Source: Bacillota bacterium (GTDB taxonomy: Bacteria > Bacillota > SHA-98 > UBA4971). Taken from it: DNA of 38,280 bases. The position numbers were made by a program, and so were the translations under genes. The stretch covers positions 1-38,280 of the forward strand of contig JASEJE010000030.1 in the NCBI GenBank assembly GCA_030024085.1, given 5' to 3'. Below, piece by piece: positions 16,183 to 32,091 of the stretch (position 1 is its first letter; each line of letters starts with the position of its first letter). A model generated the notes under the pieces. That model searched no databases and was not told the origin of the DNA. It saw only the letters and a program-made list of their open reading frames with translations.

Positions 16183-16773
16183 CTACGTGGCAGCCCCCAT
16201 GTCCACCAGTACCTGCCTGAGCCGGGCAAGCGACCTCGACGTCAGGGCGGCGGCCACTTTCTCGCTACGGCCGGTGAGCCTCGCAATCTCATTATAAGGT
16301 AGATCCTTGTAGAAACGAAGGTAGAGCAGCCTGCGACTCTCCTCGGGAAGCCGGGCCAGGGCCTGCTTCACCGTGACCCTTTCAGTAAGCCGCGAGATCT
16401 CGTCATCCATACTTGACGTGGCTGTCCCCGACACAGGCTCGTGCCCGTCCATCCACTCTGCCGGCCAGTCCGAGGTGAGGCCATATCCCCTGGCCCGGGT
16501 CTTCGCTCTCATCTGGTCGATGCACACGCTCCTTGCGACCTGCGCAAGCCACGTCTTGAATCGGCCGTGCCCCCGGTACTGCTCGAGGTTTGTGTACACT
16601 TTCGTGAACACCACCTGAAACGCCTCTTCGGCCTCGTCGCTCGGCATGTGGAAGGCTTTGATGGCTATGGCGTACACGTACGCGCCATAGCGGGAGACAA
16701 GGGTCTCCCACGCTTCGCGACGCCCTTCAAGGCACATGGCTACAAGCTCGTCGTCGGTGGTGCTCTGCGCCAA
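16183..16773 (-). CDS. ECF-type RNA polymerase sigma factor
   Basis: A 196-residue sigma-70 family ECF factor. Region 2 spans about residues 20-90, with DEAEEAFQVVFTKVY and GRFKTWLAQVARSVCIDQMR. Region 4 spans about 135-190, with LPEESRRLLYLRFYKDLPY and EIARLTGRSEKVAAALTSRS, a helix-turn-helix. The start is TTG at 16773 behind AGGAGGAG, a rare start with a strong ribosome site. The stop is TAG. It heads an operon with the zf-HC2 and CHAT genes. Its control region is shared with the divergent sigma-54 promoter of the surface-protein cluster, so both may respond to the same signal. Confidence 0.92.
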   Translation of the reverse strand: MAQSTTDDELVAMCLEGRREAWETLVSRYGAYVYAIAIKAFHMPSDEAEEAFQVVFTKVYTNLEQYRGHGRFKTWLAQVARSVCIDQMRAKTRARGYGLTSDWPAEWMDGHEPVSGTATSSMDDEISRLTERVTVKQALARLPEESRRLLYLRFYKDLPYNEIARLTGRSEKVAAALTSRSLARLRQVLVDMGAAT

Positions 16774-17777: not shown

Positions 17778-20700
17778 ATGGTACGAATCAAGCCCAAGTG
17801 GTTACTAGGAGCGATGGTAGCCCTGGTGGCGCTGGTTGCACTGCCGGCCGTCGCGCTGGCTGAGGCGCCGACCGGCGTGAACATCGTCTCGCCCACCAAC
17901 ACGTCGAAAGCCGCCGTGGCGGCGGGCAACAACGTGTACGTTACGTTCAATTATACGTCGGTGCCCATGGAAGCCAACACGACGAGCGCGACGATCCAGG
18001 TGGTCGACCCGGCGACCTCGACAGTGGTGGGCGAGCGCACATACGCGTACCCGGCCATACAGGACACAGGTCCTGGTGGCGCGCAGTTTACAGGCAACGT
18101 GACCATCGACTCAGGTGCCGCCGAAGGTAAATACGACGTCGTGGTCACGGTGACAAACCACGACGGGTCGGCCAGTGACACCGAGACGGAAGCGGTGATC
18201 GTGGACAACTCCCGCCCGGATGACGTGGCCAGCGTGACGGCGCCACCGTACACCAACGACACGACCCCGACGTTTACGTGGGTTGCTCCCGACGACAATG
18301 GGACTCCGCCCTCAGGCATAGCGGGCTACAGGGTGGAGATTTGGGATCCCGCTGGCCCCACTCGCGTGCGCGGGCCGTATACCGGAGTGACAGACGAAGA
18401 CCCGGTGTTGGGGGACGTTCAGTGGACGTTGCCCGACGCGGACGCCCTGCCGCCAGGCAGCTACGAGGTCCGGGTGTGGGCTGTGGACAGGGCAGCAAAC
18501 GAGAGTGCCAATCCGGGCACTGACTCGTTCGTGATCGACACCACCGCGCCGGTCCTCGACCAGCAGGGCCCGACGGGGTACACCAACGACGATACCCCGA
18601 CGCTCACTGTGAGGTTTAGAGATCTGGGTGCAGGTGCAAGCGGTTACGACGCGACGAATTCGCCGCTGTCGTTCACGCTGGATGGCGGATCTGTGTTGCC
18701 ACCCACGCACGAACCTTTAGATGGCGCGCTTGTGGATAGCATTACCAAGGATGTGGCTTCGGCGATCAGCCAGGGCGATCACACCGCGTACATAAAGGTA
18801 CAGGATCGTGCTGGGAATACAGCCGAGCTTACGTGGAATTTCTTCGTTGACAGCGTTGCGCCAAGTGAACCGGCTTCTGTCACGGCTCCGGAGTACACGG
18901 CCGATTCGACTCCGGATTTCTACTGGCCTGTGGCCGAGGACAACGGACCGTCTGACGAACAGTCTGGTGTCGGCAGTTACACCGTGGAGATTTGGAGTAC
19001 CGGGGTCGGTCCGGTGCGCGTGAGAGGACCATACACGGGCGTGACGGATGGCAATCCGGCGACGCCTGAAGTAGACTGGACTCTGCCCGACGCGTTGAGC
19101 GTTGACGGCGAGTACGAGATCCGGGTGTACTCTGTTGACAACGCTGGGAACACTAGCGCCTTGTATGCGAGCGACACCTTCAAACTCGACACAACTTCCC
19201 CTACCCTTGACTGGGAACAGCCGGCGAGTGGAAGCTGGACGAGCGATACCACTCCGACGCTCTGGGTCAGGTTTAGGGACACGGGAGCTGGTGCGAGCGG
19301 TTACGACCAAGCCGCATCGCCGACCGCGTTCACTCTCGACGGAAGCCCCTTGGGCGACCCCGATTCGGAGCCGGGGGACGGAAGCGTTGGTCCGGCGTAC
19401 ATAACCAAGGGTGTCACGACGGCGCTAGGGGACGGGGCACATACGGTCAGCATAACAGTCGAGGACCGTGTGGGCAACTCGACAACGCACGGGTGGACGT
19501 TCAACGTAGACAACACTCCTCCAAGCGATCCCACAAACGTGACGTTGCCGGATGCTACTCCGGACCCGACGCCTCCACCCGCTTACTGGACAAACGACTC
19601 GACGCCCAAGTTCCAGTGGGACGAGGCGACTGACACGGGTGGCTCTGGTGTAGCGAGCTATGACGTGGAGATATGGGTGAGCGGTGGCGCGTCCGCCGAG
19701 AAAACATACAGCGGCGTGACCGACCAGGACGTCGCTCCCGGCGTGCAGTGGACGATTCCTGACGCGCTCACAGAAGAGATCTATGAGGTGCGCGTCTACT
19801 CCGTAGACGTAGCGGGCAACAGGAGTACCGGCTACGGCAGCACGACTTTCGGGGTGGACATCACCATCAACCCGTTGATGCTCGACCAGCAGTTGCCCAC
19901 GGGGTTCATCAACGACGCGACGCCGTTGTTGTCGGTGAGGTTCAGAGACCTTGGGTACCCTGCGAGCGGCTACGACGCGGCGGACTCGCCGACGTCGTTC
20001 ACCCTCGACGGAAGCCCCTTGGGCGACCCGGATACTGAGCCGGACGCCGGGGATACGCTGGGGTACATCACCAAGCAGATCACGTCGGATCTTGGCCAGG
20101 GGTCACACAGCGTCTACATTGCTGTTGAGGACCTCGCAGGGAACAGTGCGGATTTGACGTGGGGCTTCTTTGTGGACACGATCCCGCCGGATACCCCAAC
20201 TGGTGTGACGGCCCCCGATCAAACGAATGATCCTACACCGGCGTTCTCGTGGGACTTCGGGACAGATCCGGGTGAAGGTGCTGTACCGCCGACCGGCTCA
20301 GGTGTCGGGAGCTACAACGTCGAGATATGGAGCGGCGGAGCGCGGGTCCTCGGGCCTTACACTGGGGTCACTGACGAAGACCCCGGCGACCCCGGCGACG
20401 TTGACTGGACGCTGCCAGATCCGCTCCCGACAGACGGCGCCTACGAGATCCGGGTGTGGTCGGTGGACAAGGCGACCAACGTGAGCGTGGATTATGGGTC
20501 CGACACGTTCAACTTTGACACGACCGACCCGGTGCTCGACAACGAGTCGCCGACGGGCTACATCAACAACGCGAGCCCGACCCTGTCTGTGAGGTTCACG
20601 GATAGCGGCGCAGGCGCAAGCGGGTATGACGAGACTTGGTCGCCCAACGTGTTTGAACTGAACGACACTAACATCACACCGCCCGGCAGCGAGCCTGGCA

Positions 20701-23700
20701 ACGGTGCGCTCACCGGCAACATTACCAAGAATGTCGGCCCGCTCGCGGAAGCTCAGCACAAGGTTGAGATAACGGTGCGTGACCTTGCGCAGAATGTCGC
20801 GAGCCTGACTTGGTACTTCACAGTAGACCTGACGGCGCCCAATCCTCCAGGGTCCGTGACGGCGCCAGAGTTCACCAACGATACGACGCCGACTTTCACC
20901 TGGACGGCAGGGTCCGACACAGGCTCGGGCATCGCGAGCTACATCGTCGAGGTCTGGACGACTGGCGGCGGCGCTGCGAAGATCCGCGGGCCATATACTG
21001 GCATCACAGGCCTCACGTTCACGATACCGAATCCGGATGCCATATCGCCTGACGGCGACTATGAAGTCCGTGTGTGGTCTGTTGACAAAGCCGGTAACAT
21101 CAGCGGCACATATGCTGCGGACGGCTTCCAGCTGGACACCGGCAAGCCGACTCTCATGAACGGCGCGCCGACCGGGCTATTGAACAGCCTGCAGGTGACG
21201 TTCACGGCGGACTATGCTGACGACAGGTCCGGGTTTGCCATAGTTCCTCCGCTCAATCCGTGGATGAGATACCAGGATGCGGACGACGGGGCGACGTGGA
21301 CGAACGTGGGCGCCATAACTGGGCCGTCCGTCGGTGCTCTCACCGGGCAAATCAAGGGCGAGAGCTGGCCCGGAACTCCCATTACGCTGCCCAACGACGG
21401 CACGTGGACGGTGCGGCTCACCGCGTTCGACCGCGCAGGCAACAACACGGATAACCCGGATCCGTACTCCTGGACGTTCACTGTAGACACCACTGCGCCG
21501 ACCTTCAGCAATCCCTATCCGGCTGAGGAAACCACCACGTGGGACAAGTGGACGGAGATCCACGTGAAGATCACCGATCCTCTCGCCAGCGACGGGACGG
21601 AAGGTAGCGGGGTAGATGGAGACTCACTGGAGTGCTACATCGACGGGCCTGGCATGATCCCGTGGGAACTGCAGCTTGAGTCCTGGGATCCGGAAACTGG
21701 AGAGGCTGTATTTACACAGCCTATCGGGCTCGATCTCGCTGACGGGACCTATACGGCCCATGTCAGTGCTGCCGATGTGGCTGGAAACTCCGGCTCCTAC
21801 GAGTGGGTGTTCGAGGTCCGGCAGGCGTACGCGCCAGGCATGAACGCCGAGCCTGAGTTCACTCAGGGCACTCAGAATACGGTAAGCTGGACTGATGTGG
21901 ACAACGAAGAGTATTACAATGTTGAGGTATCGGAGGATCCGTCCTTCGCGACGGTTTCTCATGGGGCACTATGCCCGGCTGAGACCACCTCAGTGACGTT
22001 CGACCTCCAAGACGGGCACACCTACTACTACCGAGTGCAGGCTATTGCATACGGTGACAGGGTGAGCCTGTGGTCCAACACCGTCTCCTCGACGCAGGAC
22101 GCAAGTGCGCCGACTGCTCCGGGAACTCCGAGCACGGCGAGCCCGACCAATGATACGACCCCGACCTGGACGTGGGCAGCAGCGACTGATGCTACGAGCG
22201 GTGTCGTTGACTACAACGTCCAGCTATGGAACACCAGTGGTGGGCCGTTGAGCTTCGATGGCTGGATCGGCAACACCACAACCTGGACGGTTCCTGATGG
22301 GGCTATCACAGCTGATGGCCAGTACGGGCTCATAGTCAAGGCCAAGGACGCCCTCGGCCAGGAGAGCGCGTGGTCAGTGGCGGGCTTCGTGACCATCGAC
22401 ACCACCGGCCCGACGGTGACTGCCGGCCCGGATCCGACTTCACCGACCAATAACCCACGGCCGACGTGGGCCTGGACCGGCGATGATGGAAGCGGCCCGG
22501 GAGTCACAGGAGTCAAGGGCTACTGGGTGACTCTCGATGGCGAAGCGTCCATCTGGACGACCGGTACTTCCTTCACGCCAGGTGCAGACCTTCCTGACGG
22601 CGACCATGTGCTGAAGGTGAAAGGCGTTGACAATGTCGGGAACGAGGGCATCGAAGTCACCCTCGCGACCGTGACTGTTGACACCACGCCGCCTGCGGTG
22701 CCCGGTATGCCGCACACAGAGACCCCGACGAACGACACGACGCCGACCTGGACATGGGCTGGCGTTGAGGGAGCGGCGAGCTACAACGTGTATCTGGACG
22801 ATGAGCTCGTTGACAACGTGACAGCGCCAAGCTACACAGTCCCTGAGGATGAGGCGCTTGGCGAGGGCCAGCACCACCTGCAGGTGAGCTCGCTCGACGA
22901 CCTGGACAACGAGAGTGCCCTGTCGGAGGCCGGGTATGTGGTGATCGACACGACTCCGCCAGCGGCTCCTGCGATGCTCCCGCTGCCGGAGTTCACTAAC
23001 GCTGATGAGGTCATCTTCATTTGGTCGCAGGTGACCGACGCGGTGAAGTATGACTTCTTCTATAGCGTTGACGGTGGCAGCAACTGGAACTCGGTGCCTG
23101 ATCTGACGGTGCAGACCTACACGCTGGACATCAGCGATGCGTCTGACGGTGACGTGATCATGGGCAAGGTGGTTGCCTATGATGCTGCCGGCAATGACAG
23201 CGACGAGTCCAACGAGGTCCAGACGATCGTGGACAGGACCGGTCCCGAGCTTGATGCTGTCTCGCCGGATGAGCCGGTAGTGACTCCGGACCCGAGGCCC
23301 ACGTGGGAGTGGAGCGGTTCGGATGAGGTATCCGGCGTGAGGGGCTATATGGTGACCCTAGATGGCGAGGCGGCGGGATGGACGACCGAGAACTCGTTCA
23401 CGCCGAGCGGAAACTTGGCCGATGGTGAGCACGTGCTACTCGTAGTGGGCGTTGACAACGCAGGGAACGAGACGCCGCTCGAATTCCCGACCGTGACCAT
23501 CGACGCTACGGCTCCTGACGCGCCCGTGATGGCGGCTGAGCCTGAGTTCACTCAGGGTCTCGCCAACACGGTGTCATGGGGCGATGTCTCAGGCGAGGCA
23601 CGCTACCATGTGCAGTGCTCGAGCGACTCGACATTCAGCACGGTGGACTCCGAAGACGACACCGTGACCGGAACGTCCAAGGAGTTCGCGGGCCTGCAGG

Positions 23701-25664
23701 ACGGCGTGACCTACTACTACAGAGTCCGCGCCATCGACGAACTCAACAACGTGAGCTTCTGGTCCAACATAGTCAACTCGACGCAGGACGCAAGCCCGCC
23801 GTTCCCGATCGGCTCCATGCCGACCATCACGCCGCTCGTCACCAACGGCGACGTGCTGACATTCCAGTGGCAGACGGCGATCGACGAAGTGTCGGGTATC
23901 GGGGCATACAGGCTCGAACTCTCGTACCTGGCTCCGGATGGCACGGAGGACACGGGCGACGAGGTGCTGCCCGGCGAAGTCACCACTTACACCGCGAGTG
24001 ACGCGCCTGAGGGACGCTGGATGGTCCGCGCCCGCGCCATCGACAAGGTCGGTAACGAGGGTGACGACGAATACTGGTCGCCGTGGTCGCTGCCGGCGAT
24101 CGTGGACCGGACTGCTCCGGCGGTGCCGACCATGGAGACTGAGCCCCAGTACACGCCTGGCACGTCCAACACGGTGTCCTGGGGTGCTGTGGCTGACAGC
24201 GGAGTGGCAGACGCGGTATCCGGACTTGCCAGGTACGACGTGCAAATGAGCACGAGCGCCGAGTTCCCGGCCGGTTCGCCGATCCAGAGCGTTGAGGCGG
24301 GCGTGACCTCCGCGACGTTCACAGGCCTTGCTCCTGGCCAGACCTACTACTACAGGGTCAGGGCCAAGGATGCGGCCGGCAACGTGAGCGAGTGGTCCGA
24401 ACCGACCTCCTCTACGCAGGACCCGAACCCGCTCGCGGCGCCGGTGATGGCAGCCGAGCCCGAGGAGTTCACGCAGGGCACGTCCAACACGGTGTCGTGG
24501 GGCGCGGTGTCCGGTGCTGACAGGTACCACGTGCAGTGCTCGACTGACTCGACGTTCGCGACGATCACCGCCGAGGACGAGAACGTAACAGGCACGTCCA
24601 AGACATTCGAGTCACTGAGCGACGGTGTAACCTACCACTACAGGGTCTGCGCCATCGATACGGATGCGTCGGAGCCGATCGCCAGCGAATGGTCTAACAT
24701 CGTCCACTCGACGCAAGATGCGAGCGGGCCGAGCGCGCCTGGCACGCCTAGCACACCGAGCCCGACGACCAGCAAGCGGCCGACGTGGACGTGGGCTGCT
24801 GCTACCGATGCAGGCATCGGCGTAGCCGATTACTGGGTCGAACTCAGCGTCGGCGAGGCTGTCCCCACAATAGTGCCTCGCAACGGTGGAGGTTCCGTGG
24901 TCTACGAAGGCTGGGTCGGGAACGTCACGAGCTGGACGTGTGGCGCCGATCTCGACGACGGGACATACGAACTGCGCGTGAAGGCCAAGGACGCCTTCGA
25001 CCAGGAGGGCGCTTGGTCCGATCCCGGTTACGTGACCATCGATACCACCGCGCCCGGCGTTCCGACGGACCTGGCTGTTACGAGTCCGACCGCCGATAAT
25101 ACGCCGACCTGGACATGGACGGCTTCGACGGGTGATGTCGCAAGCTACGAAGTGTCCCTGGACGGCGCGGCGGCTGTCGACATCGCCAACGTGACCAGCT
25201 TCACACCGTCTGCGCTCGCTGACGGGCGGCACAACCTCAAGGTCAGGGCGCTCGACGCCTTGCGTAACGCAAGCGCCTGGGCTGGCCCGGCGGAGGTCCT
25301 GGTGGACACGGTAGCGCCGGTCATCACGCTCATCAATCCGGAGAACGGCGCAAGGCTCAACATCACGACGGCGTCCACGATCCTCGCCGACCTGTTCGAC
25401 AGTGGCTCGGGTGTGGACCAGGCCAGGGTGTGGCTAAAGATCGACGGGGGCGAATGGGTCGCACCCACCGCGATAGTGGGCGGCACGCTCTACTACGTGG
25501 TGAACCTCCCATTCGAGGCCACCGACGACAAGTGGCACTCGATCGAGATCAAGGCCAAGGACGTCGTCGGCAACGAGACGAGAGTCCACGCCTGCTTCAA
25601 GGTGGAGCTGTACCGCGAGGGCTTCGGCTTCGGCAGGCTGAGATTCCCCGAGGAGTCTGACTAA
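17778..25664 (+). CDS. Giant exported Ig/Fn3-like repeat surface protein (2628 residues)
   Basis: A signal peptide spans about residues 1-28 (basic start, Leu/Val/Ala core, cleavage near ALA-EA). The first half, to about residue 1350, is built from five alternating A-B pairs with a period near 650 bp. Module A carries VTAP..TNDTTPTFTW, then RGPYTGVTD and YEVRVWSVD. Module B carries GYTNDDTPTLTVRFRD, GASGYD and FTLDG. The second half is Fn3/Ig-like, with PEFTQGTSNTVSWG and YYYRVRAID motifs alternating with TNDTTPTWTWA modules. The last Ig-like domain (PVITLINPENGA) is followed by a short REGFGFGRLRF tail. There is no LPXTG motif, SLH domain or C-terminal membrane segment, so anchoring is unclear. 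AAAGGAG precedes the ATG by 8 bases. Likely role: an adhesin or surface scaffold under sigma-54 control. Confidence 0.85.
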   Translation: MVRIKPKWLLGAMVALVALVALPAVALAEAPTGVNIVSPTNTSKAAVAAGNNVYVTFNYTSVPMEANTTSATIQVVDPATSTVVGERTYAYPAIQDTGPGGAQFTGNVTIDSGAAEGKYDVVVTVTNHDGSASDTETEAVIVDNSRPDDVASVTAPPYTNDTTPTFTWVAPDDNGTPPSGIAGYRVEIWDPAGPTRVRGPYTGVTDEDPVLGDVQWTLPDADALPPGSYEVRVWAVDRAANESANPGTDSFVIDTTAPVLDQQGPTGYTNDDTPTLTVRFRDLGAGASGYDATNSPLSFTLDGGSVLPPTHEPLDGALVDSITKDVASAISQGDHTAYIKVQDRAGNTAELTWNFFVDSVAPSEPASVTAPEYTADSTPDFYWPVAEDNGPSDEQSGVGSYTVEIWSTGVGPVRVRGPYTGVTDGNPATPEVDWTLPDALSVDGEYEIRVYSVDNAGNTSALYASDTFKLDTTSPTLDWEQPASGSWTSDTTPTLWVRFRDTGAGASGYDQAASPTAFTLDGSPLGDPDSEPGDGSVGPAYITKGVTTALGDGAHTVSITVEDRVGNSTTHGWTFNVDNTPPSDPTNVTLPDATPDPTPPPAYWTNDSTPKFQWDEATDTGGSGVASYDVEIWVSGGASAEKTYSGVTDQDVAPGVQWTIPDALTEEIYEVRVYSVDVAGNRSTGYGSTTFGVDITINPLMLDQQLPTGFINDATPLLSVRFRDLGYPASGYDAADSPTSFTLDGSPLGDPDTEPDAGDTLGYITKQITSDLGQGSHSVYIAVEDLAGNSADLTWGFFVDTIPPDTPTGVTAPDQTNDPTPAFSWDFGTDPGEGAVPPTGSGVGSYNVEIWSGGARVLGPYTGVTDEDPGDPGDVDWTLPDPLPTDGAYEIRVWSVDKATNVSVDYGSDTFNFDTTDPVLDNESPTGYINNASPTLSVRFTDSGAGASGYDETWSPNVFELNDTNITPPGSEPGNGALTGNITKNVGPLAEAQHKVEITVRDLAQNVASLTWYFTVDLTAPNPPGSVTAPEFTNDTTPTFTWTAGSDTGSGIASYIVEVWTTGGGAAKIRGPYTGITGLTFTIPNPDAISPDGDYEVRVWSVDKAGNISGTYAADGFQLDTGKPTLMNGAPTGLLNSLQVTFTADYADDRSGFAIVPPLNPWMRYQDADDGATWTNVGAITGPSVGALTGQIKGESWPGTPITLPNDGTWTVRLTAFDRAGNNTDNPDPYSWTFTVDTTAPTFSNPYPAEETTTWDKWTEIHVKITDPLASDGTEGSGVDGDSLECYIDGPGMIPWELQLESWDPETGEAVFTQPIGLDLADGTYTAHVSAADVAGNSGSYEWVFEVRQAYAPGMNAEPEFTQGTQNTVSWTDVDNEEYYNVEVSEDPSFATVSHGALCPAETTSVTFDLQDGHTYYYRVQAIAYGDRVSLWSNTVSSTQDASAPTAPGTPSTASPTNDTTPTWTWAAATDATSGVVDYNVQLWNTSGGPLSFDGWIGNTTTWTVPDGAITADGQYGLIVKAKDALGQESAWSVAGFVTIDTTGPTVTAGPDPTSPTNNPRPTWAWTGDDGSGPGVTGVKGYWVTLDGEASIWTTGTSFTPGADLPDGDHVLKVKGVDNVGNEGIEVTLATVTVDTTPPAVPGMPHTETPTNDTTPTWTWAGVEGAASYNVYLDDELVDNVTAPSYTVPEDEALGEGQHHLQVSSLDDLDNESALSEAGYVVIDTTPPAAPAMLPLPEFTNADEVIFIWSQVTDAVKYDFFYSVDGGSNWNSVPDLTVQTYTLDISDASDGDVIMGKVVAYDAAGNDSDESNEVQTIVDRTGPELDAVSPDEPVVTPDPRPTWEWSGSDEVSGVRGYMVTLDGEAAGWTTENSFTPSGNLADGEHVLLVVGVDNAGNETPLEFPTVTIDATAPDAPVMAAEPEFTQGLANTVSWGDVSGEARYHVQCSSDSTFSTVDSEDDTVTGTSKEFAGLQDGVTYYYRVRAIDELNNVSFWSNIVNSTQDASPPFPIGSMPTITPLVTNGDVLTFQWQTAIDEVSGIGAYRLELSYLAPDGTEDTGDEVLPGEVTTYTASDAPEGRWMVRARAIDKVGNEGDDEYWSPWSLPAIVDRTAPAVPTMETEPQYTPGTSNTVSWGAVADSGVADAVSGLARYDVQMSTSAEFPAGSPIQSVEAGVTSATFTGLAPGQTYYYRVRAKDAAGNVSEWSEPTSSTQDPNPLAAPVMAAEPEEFTQGTSNTVSWGAVSGADRYHVQCSTDSTFATITAEDENVTGTSKTFESLSDGVTYHYRVCAIDTDASEPIASEWSNIVHSTQDASGPSAPGTPSTPSPTTSKRPTWTWAAATDAGIGVADYWVELSVGEAVPTIVPRNGGGSVVYEGWVGNVTSWTCGADLDDGTYELRVKAKDAFDQEGAWSDPGYVTIDTTAPGVPTDLAVTSPTADNTPTWTWTASTGDVASYEVSLDGAAAVDIANVTSFTPSALADGRHNLKVRALDALRNASAWAGPAEVLVDTVAPVITLINPENGARLNITTASTILADLFDSGSGVDQARVWLKIDGGEWVAPTAIVGGTLYYVVNLPFEATDDKWHSIEIKAKDVVGNETRVHACFKVELYREGFGFGRLRFPEESD

Positions 25665-26476: not shown

Positions 26477-26527
26477 GCTGACTCGCACCGACCGCACGCC
26501 GTGGAGTGGCGAAACGACCCGGGCGGA

Positions 26528-26555
26528 GGAGGGCAGGCCTTCAGGCCTGCCCTCT
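26528..26555 (+). terminator. Perfect hairpin after the lipoprotein gene
   Basis: GAGGGCAGGCC and GGCCTGCCCTC form an 11-bp perfect stem with a TTCA loop. It lies about 50 bp after the lipoprotein stop and is probably a terminator lacking a long T-run. The remaining 200 bases to the next gene hold another small hairpin (ACCGGCA/TGCCGGT) and no gene. Confidence 0.6.
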
Positions 26556-26760
26556 AGCTAGGTCGGAAGGCAACGCGCTGCTGGTGGTGTCTAGCCCCTG
26601 CCGACCGGCACTTCAGGTCGGTCGATTTGACGGCACTCCAGTGTGTTGTCAGCGTGCTAGTCGGGCGGCAGTCTGCGGAGGGGGATTTCCCGACGACGAC
26701 CGGCAGCCTGCCGGTGACGTCAGCTACAACCGCCATGAAACTGGATCGGAGGCGTTCCCA

Positions 26761-28701
26761 ATGAAGACCGCGCGGCTCAACATTCACACGGCCATGATCC
26801 TGGTCTTTCTTCTTGCGTCCATTACGTTCCTGGCGCCCCTGGGCCAGGCCCAGGAGGCACGGCAGGCCGAGGAGCCACCGCAGCTCCTGCCGGTCGACAT
26901 GGCCTCCGACGTATTCCCGCCGGTCGTGACGGCCGTCTCGCCGAAGCAGGGTGCGACTGTGACCACGGGCAGGCCTCTCATCGAAGTAGCCTTCGAGGAC
27001 GCAGGCTCCGGCATAGACGAGGCTACCTTCCACCTTGCCGTGGACAAAGCAGATGTCACCTCCCAGGCCACCGTGTCGCCGGGGCTCGCCGGGTTTCCCA
27101 CGGCGTCTGGCAGGATCACCTACAGGCCCGCCGTGCCGCTGGCGCGAGGGAGCCATGAGGTGTACTTCGGCGTCCGCGACCGTGCCGGGAACCTCGCCGA
27201 GGTGCGCTGGACCTTCGAGGTCGAGCCGTTCTTTGAAGGCCTCAAGGTAGGGGGCAGGAACGCTCTCAAGGTGGAGTGGTACCCGATCTCCAAGTCCACG
27301 GACACGTTGGATCTCACGGTACAGGCGAGGGTCGCAGCCTCCGACGTGCGCCTGCGGCTCCAGGGCCGTGGAACCAACTACCCCGGCGGGACTCCGCTCT
27401 TCAGCTACGGTGACTACAATACCTACCTGGACAAATACTCGCTCGAGTTCCGCCATGGCGCATCAACCGTCGCTGCCGGTTACGCCTCGATCCCAATCAC
27501 ATCGGAGATATTCCAGGTAAGCCGCGAGGTGCGGGGTGTCGTGGCGAGCACTGCGGTCCGCGTCCCTGCGGGACAGCACGATATCTCGGCGTTCTACGGC
27601 AAGATCGCTAGCTCGAGCGGGCTAGGCCTTTCGGTGTACGACGTGGCGGGCGTCACCGAGCGGTGGAAGGCGAAGAGCGGCCTCGTGCTGGGCGGGACTT
27701 ACCTTTCCATCGGGGGCGCTGACGGCTACTACATGTTCGGGGCGACCGGCCAGGCGCGCGTGGGCGGGAGGGCCAGCCTCGGTTTCGAGGCGGTCTACGG
27801 GGCGTCAAAGGACGGGGATGAGGCGGGCAGCGGCGTCGCGGCCCATTTCGACGTGCCGTTCGCGTCGTCGTCCCTGGGCCTCGACCTTGCGATGATCCAG
27901 GCAGGCTATCCGCTCCCCGGCACGCCAGCGTCGCTTTCGCCGCAAAGGGGCGGGGTGTTGCGCTATGGGCTGCGGGCCATGGCGAAGGTCCCGGCAAAGG
28001 GCGTCCTCAACGTGAACGCGGCTCTCACCCGCGACAACCTCGACGGCACCGCGCCTTACACGCTGAACCGTGCCAACCTCGCTGCGGCCTACTACTATCC
28101 GCTGGCAGCGGGATGGAGCGTGCGCGCGTCCTACCAGGGCGAGCTCAAGCAGAGCGACGACCAGCCGCGGCGCACTGTGGACTCGGTCTCCGGCACCGCG
28201 TCGGTGGGCGCGTCCGGCCAGATAAGCCTGGGAACGGCGGCCAGGCTGTCGATGCAGGGAACCTGCTCGGCCGGGTCGTCTGAGGACCGGGTCTCAGGCA
28301 AGGCCTCACGCGTCACGGGGATCTCGGCGTCGTGCTCGGCTCCGCTCGGGTCATGGAGCCTGAGCGGCGGGCTCGACGTGTCCAGGAAGGAAGCGCTCGA
28401 CGACGGAACGCGCACAGAGTCGGCGGGGGCGAAGGTGACGGCGAGCGGGCAGATCGTCCCGAAGGTGCTCCAGGGCACGCTCACTCTCTTCCGGACGGCG
28501 AGCGACAGCTTCAAGGAGCCGTCGGCTGCGCCCGTCCAGCGCAAAACCGAGGCCGGGCTCGAAACGACGCTTCGCCTGACGGTTGGGAAGTCGTCCACCG
28601 TCGCCGTAGTCTTCAAGAACTCGTGGTGGACACAGGAGGACGCATCGTTCAAGGAGGGCCAGAACCGCACGCTCAACCTCGAGTGGGTGCTGGCGTTCTA
28701 A
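26761..28701 (+). CDS. Exported Ig-like plus outer-membrane-barrel-like protein
   Basis: A 646-residue protein. The signal peptide covers about residues 1-33 (cleavage near GQA-QE). Residues about 50-155 are an Ig-like domain (VVTAVSPKQGATV, GSGIDEATFHLAVD, ARGSHEVYFGVRDRAGNL) close in pattern to the last domain of the giant protein. Both are followed by a similar VE-F-EG-G stretch. The remaining 480 residues are amphipathic beta-strand-like, rich in Gly, Ser and Tyr, and end WVLAF. A terminal aromatic residue after alternating strands is the hallmark of outer-membrane barrels. GGAGG 8 bases before ATG 26761 fixes the start; the open frame upstream to 26506 crosses a terminator. It may anchor or export its neighbours in a diderm envelope. 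Confidence 0.72.
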   Translation: MKTARLNIHTAMILVFLLASITFLAPLGQAQEARQAEEPPQLLPVDMASDVFPPVVTAVSPKQGATVTTGRPLIEVAFEDAGSGIDEATFHLAVDKADVTSQATVSPGLAGFPTASGRITYRPAVPLARGSHEVYFGVRDRAGNLAEVRWTFEVEPFFEGLKVGGRNALKVEWYPISKSTDTLDLTVQARVAASDVRLRLQGRGTNYPGGTPLFSYGDYNTYLDKYSLEFRHGASTVAAGYASIPITSEIFQVSREVRGVVASTAVRVPAGQHDISAFYGKIASSSGLGLSVYDVAGVTERWKAKSGLVLGGTYLSIGGADGYYMFGATGQARVGGRASLGFEAVYGASKDGDEAGSGVAAHFDVPFASSSLGLDLAMIQAGYPLPGTPASLSPQRGGVLRYGLRAMAKVPAKGVLNVNAALTRDNLDGTAPYTLNRANLAAAYYYPLAAGWSVRASYQGELKQSDDQPRRTVDSVSGTASVGASGQISLGTAARLSMQGTCSAGSSEDRVSGKASRVTGISASCSAPLGSWSLSGGLDVSRKEALDDGTRTESAGAKVTASGQIVPKVLQGTLTLFRTASDSFKEPSAAPVQRKTEAGLETTLRLTVGKSSTVAVVFKNSWWTQEDASFKEGQNRTLNLEWVLAF

Positions 28702-29170
28702 GGGCAAGGATCTTTCGGGTTTCATCCCGGGTTGTGGCATGGGCCAGCCGGAGAAGGTACGGATAGTGGCGGCGTCGGTCAGGTATCTTAAGGAACAAGT
28801 CGAGTCGGTCGAGGTAGTCTCGCGCGTAGTCCAGGGCCAGGTCCAGCGCCTGTTCCGCGGCGGTGGCTTTGTCGTCGGCCCACGTGTAAATCGAGATCTC
28901 GTCGAGAAAGACCTGCCATGATTTTGTGGGTTCATCGTATTCCATCTTGGGTGAAAACCTGTACCCCTCGGCCAGCCATTCCTCCAGCAACTGGGTGCTG
29001 ATGATGGAGGCCCTGCGGCGGCCAGACGCTTGCGAGATCTCACAGATTACCTCGCGCCCCTTCAGCGCGGCTTGATCGAACAGCAATGCAAGCTGCGCGG
29101 GGACCTCGCTGATGCTCGTCACCGGCGCCATTGGCCACATCCTTTCCCCGGAGGAGTTTTCGCGATCCAC
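28673..29170 (-). CDS. Antitoxin-like protein (Phd/YefM-like then HicB-like)
   Basis: A 165-residue soluble protein. Residues about 18-65 (SISEVPAQLALLFDQAALKG and later ASIISTQLLEEWL) resemble the start of Phd/YefM antitoxins. Residues about 75-120 (DEPTKSWQVFLDEIS and AAEQALDLALDYARDYLDRL) resemble a HicB-type fold. The rest is helical. No toxin gene is adjacent, so it would be an orphan. GTG 29170 follows GAGGTGG, and TATAAT lies just upstream on the same strand near 29185; an ATG at about 29131 is an alternative start. Its 3' end overlaps the convergent barrel gene by 29 bp. The assignment is by pattern only. Confidence 0.5.
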   Translation of the reverse strand: MDRENSSGERMWPMAPVTSISEVPAQLALLFDQAALKGREVICEISQASGRRRASIISTQLLEEWLAEGYRFSPKMEYDEPTKSWQVFLDEISIYTWADDKATAAEQALDLALDYARDYLDRLDLFLKIPDRRRHYPYLLRLAHATTRDETRKILALRTPAPTRG

Positions 29171-29316: not shown

Positions 29317-29877
29317 TCACGTCGAATTCGCGAGGTACCGGGTTATTCCTTCCGTGATTGCCCGAGCTGCCTTTGACTGAAAGCCTTCGTCTTTCAGGAG
29401 CGCCTCTTCATTCTGGTTTGATATGAACGCAAGCTCGATGAGAGCTGCCGGCATCCTGGTGTGCCGCAGCACATAGAACCCTGCGCTCTTGACGCCCCTG
29501 TCGGCGAGGCCGGTCGCGCGGACGAGGGGCCGGTGTATTGCGCTTGCCAGCTTCTGGCCGGCTTCACTCCGGGGATAGTGATACACTTCGGTGCCGTGGG
29601 CGGCCTCGCTCTCCGCCGAGTTGCAGTGGACGGACACGAACGCTGCCGCGTCCGCATTGTTTGCCCTGCTCACGCGCGTCCTGAGGGACACCGACGCGTC
29701 CTTGGTCCTGGTCAGGATCACGTCAACTCCCTCGCCCCGCAGCACCGCCGCGGCCCTGGCCGCTACGGCCAGGTTGATGTCAGCCTCGCGCGTGCCGAGA
29801 CGGCCCACCGCACCCGGATCGTCGCCGCCGTACTAGTGGCCGGGGTCCAGACACACGACAGTCTTTTCCCCGAGCAT
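29317..29877 (-). pseudogene. N-acetylmuramoyl-L-alanine amidase (Amidase_3) interrupted by an in-frame TAG
   Basis: Starting at ATG 29877, behind GGGGAGGTGG, the frame reads MLGEKTVVCLDPGH, then TAG at 29835-29833, then YGGDDPGAVGRLGTREADIN and onward without a break to 29317. The zinc-ligand His of DPGH is codon 14, so the stop directly follows it. Later Amidase_3 landmarks are intact: Glu of TREADINLA, His of FVSVHCNS and Glu of ALIELAFISN. Restarting at GTG 29808 would lose the first zinc ligand. The family cleaves the sugar-peptide bond of peptidoglycan and is common in phage and spore lysis systems. A single base change (for example TGG to TAG) would explain the state. Two neighbouring genes end in TAG, which argues against recoding. 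A holin-like gene lies divergently. Confidence 0.85.
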
Positions 29878-29944
29878 ATGGCACCACCTCCCCTGACCGT
29901 GTGACTGGCTGCTGACCGTCTGCCTCCTCGCGCGACTCTCTGTG

Positions 29945-30319: not shown

Positions 30320-30610
30320 ATGGAGAACGGGGTAAGGATAGGGTATGACCTCAACCTCCTTGACGCAGGCCTGATCCCGCTTGTGATCGTCATCGTGCAG
30401 TACCTCAAGAAGCATGTCAACAAGAGGTGGATCCCGATTCTGCCGTTTCCCGTGAGCGCGGCGCTGTCGGCACTCTCCGTCATCGGCGCGGCGGGCGAGT
30501 GGCCTGGATGGCCGGCGTTTCTTGCACAGACGACGGTACAAACGCTGAAGGTGGCGTTCGCTGCCATGGGCCTGTTCAAGATATACTGGACTACCGTGCT
30601 CGGGAACTGA
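30320..30610 (+). CDS. Holin-like small membrane protein
   Basis: A 96-residue protein with three hydrophobic segments: about residues 16-29 (AGLIPLVIVIVQYL), 42-59 (PFPVSAALSALSVIGAA) and 70-92. A basic patch (KKHVNKR) lies between the first two. Size and layout fit phage holins, which permeabilise the membrane so that an endolysin reaches the wall. The broken amidase diverges upstream and two coiled-coil envelope proteins lie downstream, so the area may be a decayed or domesticated lysis cassette. AGGAGGGG lies 8-10 bases before the ATG. No specific holin family is recognised. Confidence 0.6.
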   Translation: MENGVRIGYDLNLLDAGLIPLVIVIVQYLKKHVNKRWIPILPFPVSAALSALSVIGAAGEWPGWPAFLAQTTVQTLKVAFAAMGLFKIYWTTVLGN

Positions 30611-31005: not shown

Positions 31006-31550
31006 GTGATGCGCGGAACGCGTGATGCGGAAAGAGTGATCTACGTCAGCGGTCGGTTCCGGTGCGTGACGTACGGAACGGGTAGGGCTCGGACCAGTGA
31101 TGCGTATCACTCATCAGCCTTCAATGATGACACAGGGAACCGCTCAGGAGGAACCCATGATGTGCGTCACCCGTCCTGCGTCAACAAGAGACGTGTGGAA
31201 CGCTTCATTGAGAACGCGTGATGCTGGGAACGGCCGAGGAAGAACTCGCGATGTACGTCACCTATCCCGCTTCAACGAGTGACGTATGGAACGATTCACG
31301 AGGAACCCGTGACCCAGGGAACGGGTCAGGCGGCAGCGATGATGTACGTCACCGATTGGCCGCGGAAGCGTGACCCAGGGAACGGGAGAAGCCCGACGAG
31401 TGATGCACGCCATCCTTTCCATGGCATGTGTGACGTGGGGAACGGGCAGGGCGGGACCAGTGATGTACATCACTGGATGGTTTGTAAGCGTGATGTAGGG
31501 AACGGCCCCGGAGGAATCCGTAATGCACGTCAGCCGTCCTCTCAAGAGAC
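31006..31550. repeat. Degenerate satellite with 30/30/31-bp phasing
   Basis: Units starting GTGAYG (or a one-base variant) occur at 31006, 31036, 31066, 31097, 31127, 31157, 31188, 31218, 31248, 31279, 31309, 31339, 31370, 31400, 31430, 31460, 31490 and 31520. Two unit types largely alternate: one continues TGATGTACGTCAC (near-palindromic; GTGATGTACATCAC at 31460 is perfect) and one continues GGGAACGG. It is read through by several frames but none is sustained, so I regard it as noncoding. Confidence 0.88.
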
Positions 31551-31619
31551 GGCACTGCCGGGTACTCCATATGCAAGAGAGCAGTACCAGGTGCGGCTTT
31601 TGAAGCGCTCTTCTGAGCA

Positions 31620-31757
31620 CAGGCGGCGCGATGGGCACAGGCGGCGCGATGGGCGCGGGCAGTGCGATGGGCGCGGGCAGTGCGATGGGCGCCGGCAGTG
31701 CGATGGGCGCCGGCAGTGCGATGGGCGCCGGCAGTGCGATGGGCCGCGGGAGTGCGG
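31620..31757 (+). repeat. 18-bp tandem repeat
   Basis: About seven units of GCGATGGGCGCSGGCAGT run up to the coiled-coil membrane gene. In frame they would give six-residue repeats (MGAGSA or CDGRGQ), but no start with a ribosome site precedes them. Confidence 0.85.
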
Positions 31758-31797
31758 CGGGTATCTGGAGCGTGGTGGGCACGAGGGAGGTGACCTC

Positions 31798-32091
31798 ATG
31801 CTATTGCCGATCATCAAAAAGTGGGCGCCATGGATCCTTGTCGCCGTGCTCGTAGCCGCAGTCGTGTTCATGGGGACCAGGTGGTATCAGCACGACCGCC
31901 TGTTGCGCGAGGCCCTCGAGGCGAAAGACAAGGCCGAGCAGGCGCTGAAGAGCATGGCGTCAGTTGAGGAGCAGATGAAGGCAATCCTGGAAAATGTGAA
32001 AAGGCTCGACGAGAAACAGGCGGAGATAGATGCGCGGGTCCGCGAGCGCGATAAGAGGCTCGAGGACCTTGAGAGGAGGACGAAGAAGTGA
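31798..32091 (+). CDS. Membrane-anchored coiled-coil protein (Rz/i-spanin-like layout)
   Basis: A 97-residue protein: one N-terminal membrane segment (about residues 10-28, PWILVAVLVAAVVFMGT), then a long heptad-rich coiled coil of Glu, Lys, Leu and Arg to the end. GGAGGTGA lies 7 bases before ATG 31798, so the longer frame that runs through the satellite upstream is not used. It overlaps the next gene by four bases (GTGA), indicating translational coupling. An inner-membrane anchor plus periplasmic coiled coil paired with an exported coiled-coil partner is the layout of two-component spanins. Sequence homology to Rz is not evident. Confidence 0.75.
   Translation: MLLPIIKKWAPWILVAVLVAAVVFMGTRWYQHDRLLREALEAKDKAEQALKSMASVEEQMKAILENVKRLDEKQAEIDARVRERDKRLEDLERRTKK

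Follow-up and report, generated by a model that had tools for sequence, protein, structure and literature searches.

An amidase gene in a 38,280-nucleotide stretch of DNA from a Bacillota genome (hereafter the window) is interrupted by an in-frame TAG directly behind the codon for a zinc-ligand histidine. This TAG is real: it is neither an error, nor a fresh inactivation, nor a pyrrolysine site. Comparative sequence analysis suggests, with a probability that we put at roughly three in four, that it is a natural programmed in-frame stop-hop site, seemingly derived from an HNH endonuclease cassette. We also regard it as likely that HNH homing endonucleases carry this natural in-frame stop-hop as part of a self-restoring cassette, and that the hop sites can outlive the endonuclease and become fixed in bacterial lysis genes.

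Organization of the interrupted amidase gene

The gene lies on the minus strand at 29877-29317, with the TAG at 29833-29835 as its codon 15, right behind His14 of MLGEKTVVCLDPGH, and past this codon the frame is open as far as the TGA at 29317. In translation the gene reads MLGEKTVVCLDPGH-stop-YGGDDPGAVG...LANST, and the relevant features are as follows:

29887..29893, minus strand: strong Shine-Dalgarno sequence GGGGAGG of the amidase gene, preceding the ATG
29836..29877, minus strand: 5' coding part, codons 1-14, whose last residue is the zinc-ligand His (reading frame; raw pN/pS)
29839..29875, minus strand: stem-loop whose 3' arm ends immediately 5' of the take-off codon (RNAalifold, pair counts, folding energy, synonymous recodings)
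29836..29838, minus strand: take-off codon CAC (His)
29833..29835, minus strand: in-frame stop TAG
29830..29832, minus strand: proposed landing codon TAC, one nucleotide from a His codon
29317..29829, minus strand: 3' coding part, GGDDPGAVG...LANST and TGA, encoding the Amidase_3 catalytic domain (Pfam and PHROG matches, alignment)

The first-pass annotation had described a frame intact on both sides of the TAG, a strong ribosome site and the persistence of all other catalytic residues, and each of these holds. The part downstream of the stop matches the Pfam Amidase_3 family (PF01520; 4.5e-48, 164 bits against a cut-off of 27) and contains the other zinc-ligand or catalytic motifs GTREAD, SVHCN and ELAF; against PHROG, the amidase gives an endolysin match of 2.3e-48. 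The residues of the Amidase_3 motifs are invariant across a ten-row alignment in which one G003 gene appears twice. Leaders of the GGAGGTGGTG type also occur upstream of several phage copies (L161, L163, L229).

Conservation of the stop in bacterial homologues

A search with the read-through product against 17 genomes of the class and 398 genomes of the phylum, in which the spacing around the stop was left free, recovered ten homologues at 59% identity or more, distributed over four genera (g1, g3, g4, g5) and three families of the class. Comparison with these close relatives bears out the stop: in nine of the ten a single in-frame stop is present, and its place is invariably behind the same His (eight TAG and one TAA, the latter in G014). 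Four of the stop-bearing loci are also found in the named MAG records JAAYXB, JACIXY, DKEX and DUSO, and the 50 further homologues listed, at 57% identity or less, are stop-free. When all pairs of the ten genes are compared, raw pN/pS comes to 0.305 in codons 2-14 and to 0.343 in the 140 codons that follow the site, and pS lies near 0.66-0.68, so that synonymous sites are close to saturation. Given the similar ratios on both sides and this degree of divergence, the codons on either side of the stop appear to act as one constrained protein while the silent sites have turned over.

The first-pass annotation had left the choice between a very recent inactivation, a sequencing error and readthrough. 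The stop recurs in MAGs that represent other species and were deposited separately, and sequencing error is therefore rejected; a recent inactivation is likewise rejected, as the stop is older than the split of the three families and the flanking codons are under purifying selection. With these two excluded, recoding is the answer, although the classical form of readthrough is disfavored relative to a hop. Recoding had been judged less likely on the ground that TAG ends at least two nearby genes; none of the 15 other window ORFs checked ends in TAG, and the conservation of the stop across three families, with purifying selection on both sides, reverses that judgment. TAG is still a normal stop in the genome, where it ends 11 of 44 long ORFs in the stretches examined (which include overlapping loci, so that a few genes are counted twice).

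The tenth homologue, G015:C1, reads DPGHGGVDPGA and lacks exactly six nucleotides, namely the stop and the next codon. Since it is nested within the stop-bearing clade as the sister of the stop-bearing G013 gene (support 100/98), it reads as an exact six-nucleotide loss from a stop-bearing ancestor. A tree of 87 amidases, from which the locus L158 is absent, shows 13 changes of stop label, at least seven of them forced by well-supported branches, with long branches calling for caution; the stop thus appears to have been gained or lost many times among amidases. The nine bacterial stop-bearing copies show no disruption besides the stop itself. One of them, on contig C82 of G002 (L091), has an ACG where the ATG would stand; roughly 0.8 kb downstream of it there is another amidase copy, which is truncated and interrupted by a TGA.

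The codons flanking the stop in a wider set of amidases

A pattern scan of the 398 phylum genomes (D[PA]GH, TAR, any codon, GG) matched 15 genomes, comprising the nine known homologues, four matches rejected as chance (G179, G299, G032, G314) and two unrelated stop-bearing amidases (G034, CAT TAG CAC; G368, CAT TAA CAT). In IMG/VR, the DPGH patterns with TAR gave 15 matches, ten of them amidases, and the DAGH patterns with TAR gave 20, four of them amidases; all 14 amidases carry TAG. The DPGH pattern with TGA gave 21 matches in the viral set and patterns with GxD instead of GGxD spacing gave 40, none of them amidases (by eye in the latter case); as these viral-set patterns have fixed spacing, sites spaced otherwise would be missed there. 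Replacing the stop by NNN in the pattern gave 25 matches; eight of these are amidases, and all eight have TAG. A sense-codon version of the two-codon insert was found neither in 63 stop-free amidase N-termini nor among the NNN-pattern amidases, and a BLAST search of L161 against phages gave no match.

After identical sites were collapsed (L229 with PK5.1, L160 with L164, and L226 with L224), these searches yielded 23 distinct stop-bearing amidase sites, 21 with TAG and two with TAA, among them unrelated endolysins of phages and prophages. L158 fell under the HMM cut for the set of N-termini and was added by hand to the hairpin comparison described below. A His codon precedes the stop, and UAG or UAA follows it immediately, in 23 of 23 sites, both being fixed by the search design. 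The codon after the stop was free in every pattern, and is CAC in nine sites, CAT in six, CGC in three, CAA in two and TAC, CCC and CTT in one each; it thus encodes His in 15 of 23 sites, and in all of the remaining eight a single substitution would turn it into a His codon. Pairing with tRNA-His(GUG) is possible in 19 of 23 sites when G-U is accepted at every position, four of the 23 needing such a G-U pair. The TAC of the window is one of these four, and could pair through a first-position G-U wobble. In the other four sites (CAA twice, CCC, CTT) the codon cannot fully pair with this tRNA, wobble included. The base following the stop is C in 22 of the 23 sites. Together with the 5' hairpin and the HNH association described below, the flanking codons point to a six-nucleotide hop rather than classical readthrough.

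A hairpin 5' of the take-off codon

RNAalifold analysis of the nine bacterial sites predicts a stem that ends immediately 5' of the take-off codon, in which 90.9% of cells are paired and seven cells are changed on both sides, against 29-59% paired cells and zero to two two-sided changes in slid controls. Only one of 500 shuffles reaches the paired-cell value of this stem and one of 500 its two-sided-cell value, whereas 105 of 500 have at least as many pairs with two-sided changes as the sites themselves. In the window itself the hairpin has an energy of -16.8 kcal/mol (P 0.047 against 150 synonymous recodings).

The hairpin extends to the wider set. When the best hairpin with a 3' arm ending 0-6 nt before the take-off codon is compared, the mean energy is -14.1 kcal/mol in the 23 stop-bearing amidases and -7.0 kcal/mol in 64 stop-free ones (Mann-Whitney P 2e-8). 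Relative to synonymous recodings of the N-terminal peptide, P is 0.05 or less in 18 of 23 stop-bearing and 6 of 64 stop-free genes (group comparison P 8e-9). These P values are optimistic, because the sequences share ancestry and their independence is overstated. The hairpins of L010, L164, L150, L224 and L158 (5 of 23) are not significant against synonymous recodings, and that of L158 is present only in the longer stretch used for the energy comparison. The hairpins of PK5.1, L161, L162, L165, L228 and L237 differ in sequence.

Association with an HNH endonuclease cassette

At eight loci (L157, L158, L163, L165, L229, L232, L237 and PK5.1/L265) the stop-bearing amidase is immediately preceded by an ORF for an HNH endonuclease, the end of which, where measured, falls between 7 nt inside and 18 nt before the amidase start. 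These ORFs match Pfam HNH or HNH_3, several of them below the curated cut-off, and an HMM built on four of them matched only those loci among the loci compared. The HNH gene is absent from most stop-bearing loci, the whole family of the window gene included, and a search of the 17 class genomes found none, which is not proof of absence.

The origin of the arrangement can be followed in the Geobacillus phage vB_GthS_PK5.1. Its sisters D6E, PK3.6, PT9.1 and NIIg9.7 encode the MVRIVLDAGHGG endolysin without interruption. In PK5.1 the native start of the endolysin is cut off behind GHGG by the HNH gene, which is followed by a new ribosome site and then by MTQRLLKIVLDAGH-TAG running into CAC-GGC-GGC. 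PK5.1 presents both hallmarks of an HNH homing endonuclease cassette, namely an HNH domain and an insertion into a host gene that is uninterrupted in relatives. PK5.1, L229 and L232 share one nearly identical insert in the endolysin gene, made up of the HNH gene, the replacement N-terminus and the TAG. Since the same cassette occurs in L229 and L232 while the native flanks differ on both sides, the TAG is the last codon of the cassette, and the codon behind it the native His codon. A homing endonuclease thus seems to have spread the stop site.

According to the available portion of the PK5.1 paper, the HNH gene lies between holin and endolysin, the phage forms plaques and it has one endolysin; that portion mentions neither a split gene nor a stop (PMC10459684). 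The stop-bearing gene is the sole annotated amidase of this plaque-forming phage. In the PK5.1 record (OP341628.1, 16066-17264; L265, 2066-3264) the amidase start is annotated at 16656, past the TAG, and the split gene is missed.

A proposed mechanism

We propose that the ribosome would make MLGEKTVVCLDPGH and pause once peptidyl-tRNA-His sits on CAC and the A site holds UAG, whereupon tRNA-His would release CAC, the mRNA would slide six nucleotides forward, and the tRNA would re-pair immediately past the stop, on what was at first a second His codon; nine nucleotides would thereby give one His. A hop of this kind would yield the canonical Amidase_3 active site DPGH-GG, in a protein with two residues fewer than readthrough would give. 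By folding again behind the ribosomal decoding site, as has been proposed for T4 gene 60, the hairpin just upstream of the take-off codon probably promotes or assists the slide; on closing once the P-site pairing breaks, it would pull the mRNA forward. The hop, its efficiency and this role of the hairpin are inferences. The four landing codons unable to pair fully with tRNA-His(GUG), the five hairpins that are not significant and the lack of an HNH gene at most stop-bearing loci weigh against the proposal.

The site itself would have originated as the right end of a mobile HNH cassette, with a presumably active endonuclease, whose insertion point is the DPGH/GG codons of endolysin genes in phages. 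The cassette would bring a new ribosome site and an N-terminus whose terminal His-TAG comes to lie directly before the native His codon. The bacterial lineage to which the window belongs would have lost the HNH gene and kept the hop site. Retention of the stop could then be understood from the hop itself: a change of UAG to a sense codon would place two residues behind the zinc ligand, and a plain gene could be recovered solely through deletion of exactly these six nucleotides, which would explain both the lack of sense versions and the single, exact escape. Keeping a lytic enzyme scarce may further contribute to its retention.

Alternative explanations

Programmed readthrough, in which a near-cognate tRNA decodes UAG or UAA at low frequency to give DPGH-X-Y-GG and thereby keeps the lytic enzyme scarce, is the main rival; it appears unlikely, though several observations fit it. 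A stop followed by C is a context weak for termination, in keeping with the C behind the stop in 22 of 23 sites; stop-free amidases vary in loop length after GH (GHSGP, GHG and longer inserts), so that two extra residues might fit; and the 5' hairpin, a point against the hop in this respect, might also favor readthrough. Decoding of the stop leaves unexplained, however, why in all 23 sites the codon behind it either is His or could become so by one change, and why sense versions are lacking. Moreover, the stop-free relative G015:C1 lost six nucleotides rather than three or one, and the cassette junctions place the stop between a cassette His codon and a native one. A dedicated tRNA for UAG, whether for pyrrolysine or another suppressor, would agree with UAG at 21 of 23 sites, but is extremely improbable given TAA at the other two and the use of TAG as an ordinary stop in the genome. 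A search for the suppressor tRNA or pyl genes that the first-pass annotation had considered supported neither: in the own genome the PylS profile scores 37.6 bits against a cut-off of 178, and at a loose level it also matches 13 of 14 control genomes, so pyrrolysine is rejected; no CUA or UUA anticodon occurs among its 44 tRNA matches. Loss of RF1 is rejected too, as the genome has an intact RF1 gene (prfA), the single TAG reported for which is the codon just before the ATG and not internal.

We consider it very improbable that the gene is a pseudogene or a split gene, in which translation would finish at the stop and leave either a dead protein or two parts acting separately. The ACG start of the G002 copy would suit this reading, but purifying selection is similar on both sides of a stop kept across three families, nine bacterial copies are free of other disruption, and a plaque-forming phage has the stop-bearing gene as its sole annotated amidase. 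Equally improbable is that the hairpin and the stop are DNA-level features of a mobile element, such as an end structure or a mark of cleavage resistance, with the endolysin made otherwise, for instance by RNA splicing. Their location at the right end of the HNH cassette would suit this idea; against it, the HNH-less bacterial copies keep the hairpin with compensatory changes, the codons upstream of the stop are under protein-level selection, and no Rfam group I or group II intron matched at the gathering score in five cassette loci (L265, L229, L163, L158, L165).

The preferred stop-hop calls for tRNA-His, and the RF00005 matches in the own MAG include no tRNA-His, tRNA-Ile(GAU) or tRNA-Ala(UGC). 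As congeners and other members of the class have tRNA-His(GUG), we take its absence to be a gap in the MAG. Among the tRNAs of this genome, one at 152-227 of L129 (own contig C35, 4051-4123) stands out: it belongs to class I, is 76 bases long and combines a GCU (Ser) anticodon with an atypical T-loop; a normal long-arm tRNA-Ser(GCU) is encoded elsewhere in the genome.

Relation to known bypassing and homing systems

In-frame stop-hops have been made with constructs, and the part of the literature available to us states that no natural occurrences were known as of 2016, and that some apparent readthrough might in fact be hopping (PMC5009743). Our literature search for endolysins of this kind, or for natural stop-hops, found no prior report. 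The codon-stop-codon arrangement of a stop-hop, with nine nucleotides in the same frame, appears to be present at the amidase sites, which differ from the synthetic E. coli stop-hops in having a conserved hairpin and, in some cases, landing codons that have drifted (PMC5009743).

For the bypassing of T4 gene 60, the same source in part describes a 5' hairpin model and a homing endonuclease upstream (PMC5009743). There the gap is 50 nt, the codon is Gly and a single phage gene is concerned, whereas the amidase site has a gap of 6 nt with unchanged frame, uses His and recurs in many endolysins; it also has a short N-terminal leader, and the peptide made before the site is the first strand of the enzyme itself. 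Like the bypassing of Magnusiomyces capitatus mitochondria, as far as the source covers it, the proposed hop would skip short inserts at translation with landing codons that are not always matched; the former differs in taking place in fungal mitochondria and in being seemingly independent of mRNA context (PMC5009743). The T4 mob genes, free-standing HNH homing endonucleases, are comparable in that the HNH gene lies beside or inside a gene at a critical codon and can split its host, but the account at hand has the host restored by assembly of two polypeptides, where the amidase would be restored by a replacement N-terminus and a recoding site (PMC2988022).

The amidase family thus offers many candidates for natural stop-hops, including one in a cultured phage, with diverse hairpins and a built-in control in the relative with the six-nucleotide loss. 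If the proposal is correct, bypassing would become a recurrent mechanism instead of a curiosity of a few genes, a second link between homing endonucleases and recoding would be added after T4 gene 60, and annotation pipelines would be wrongly truncating or restarting such endolysin genes, as in PK5.1.

A lysis-type neighborhood

Three genes around the amidase bear on its context:

30320..30610, plus strand: divergent neighbor encoding a holin-like 96-aa membrane protein, kept beside the amidase in G001-G004 (weak PHROG holin match, E 0.0055)
31279..32091, plus strand: ORF whose C-terminal ~90 aa resemble Rz-like spanins (PHROG, E 1.2e-5)
28673..29170, minus strand: PHD_like (PF12910) gene downstream of the amidase (Pfam match)

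Because holin-like and Rz-like-spanin genes adjoin the amidase, and this is conserved in sister genomes, the locus resembles a lysis module of phage type carried by a bacterial chromosome. An Rz-like spanin C-terminus (31279-32091) would suit a cell with an outer membrane, and bears on the envelope of this Bacillota lineage. Also near the lysis-type genes, the window encodes a 2628-aa protein of bacterial Ig-like (Big_13) and fn3 domains (17778-25664) and a 731-aa weakly Ig-like protein (26506-28701); the lysis-type module might help the release of these large Ig-like proteins.
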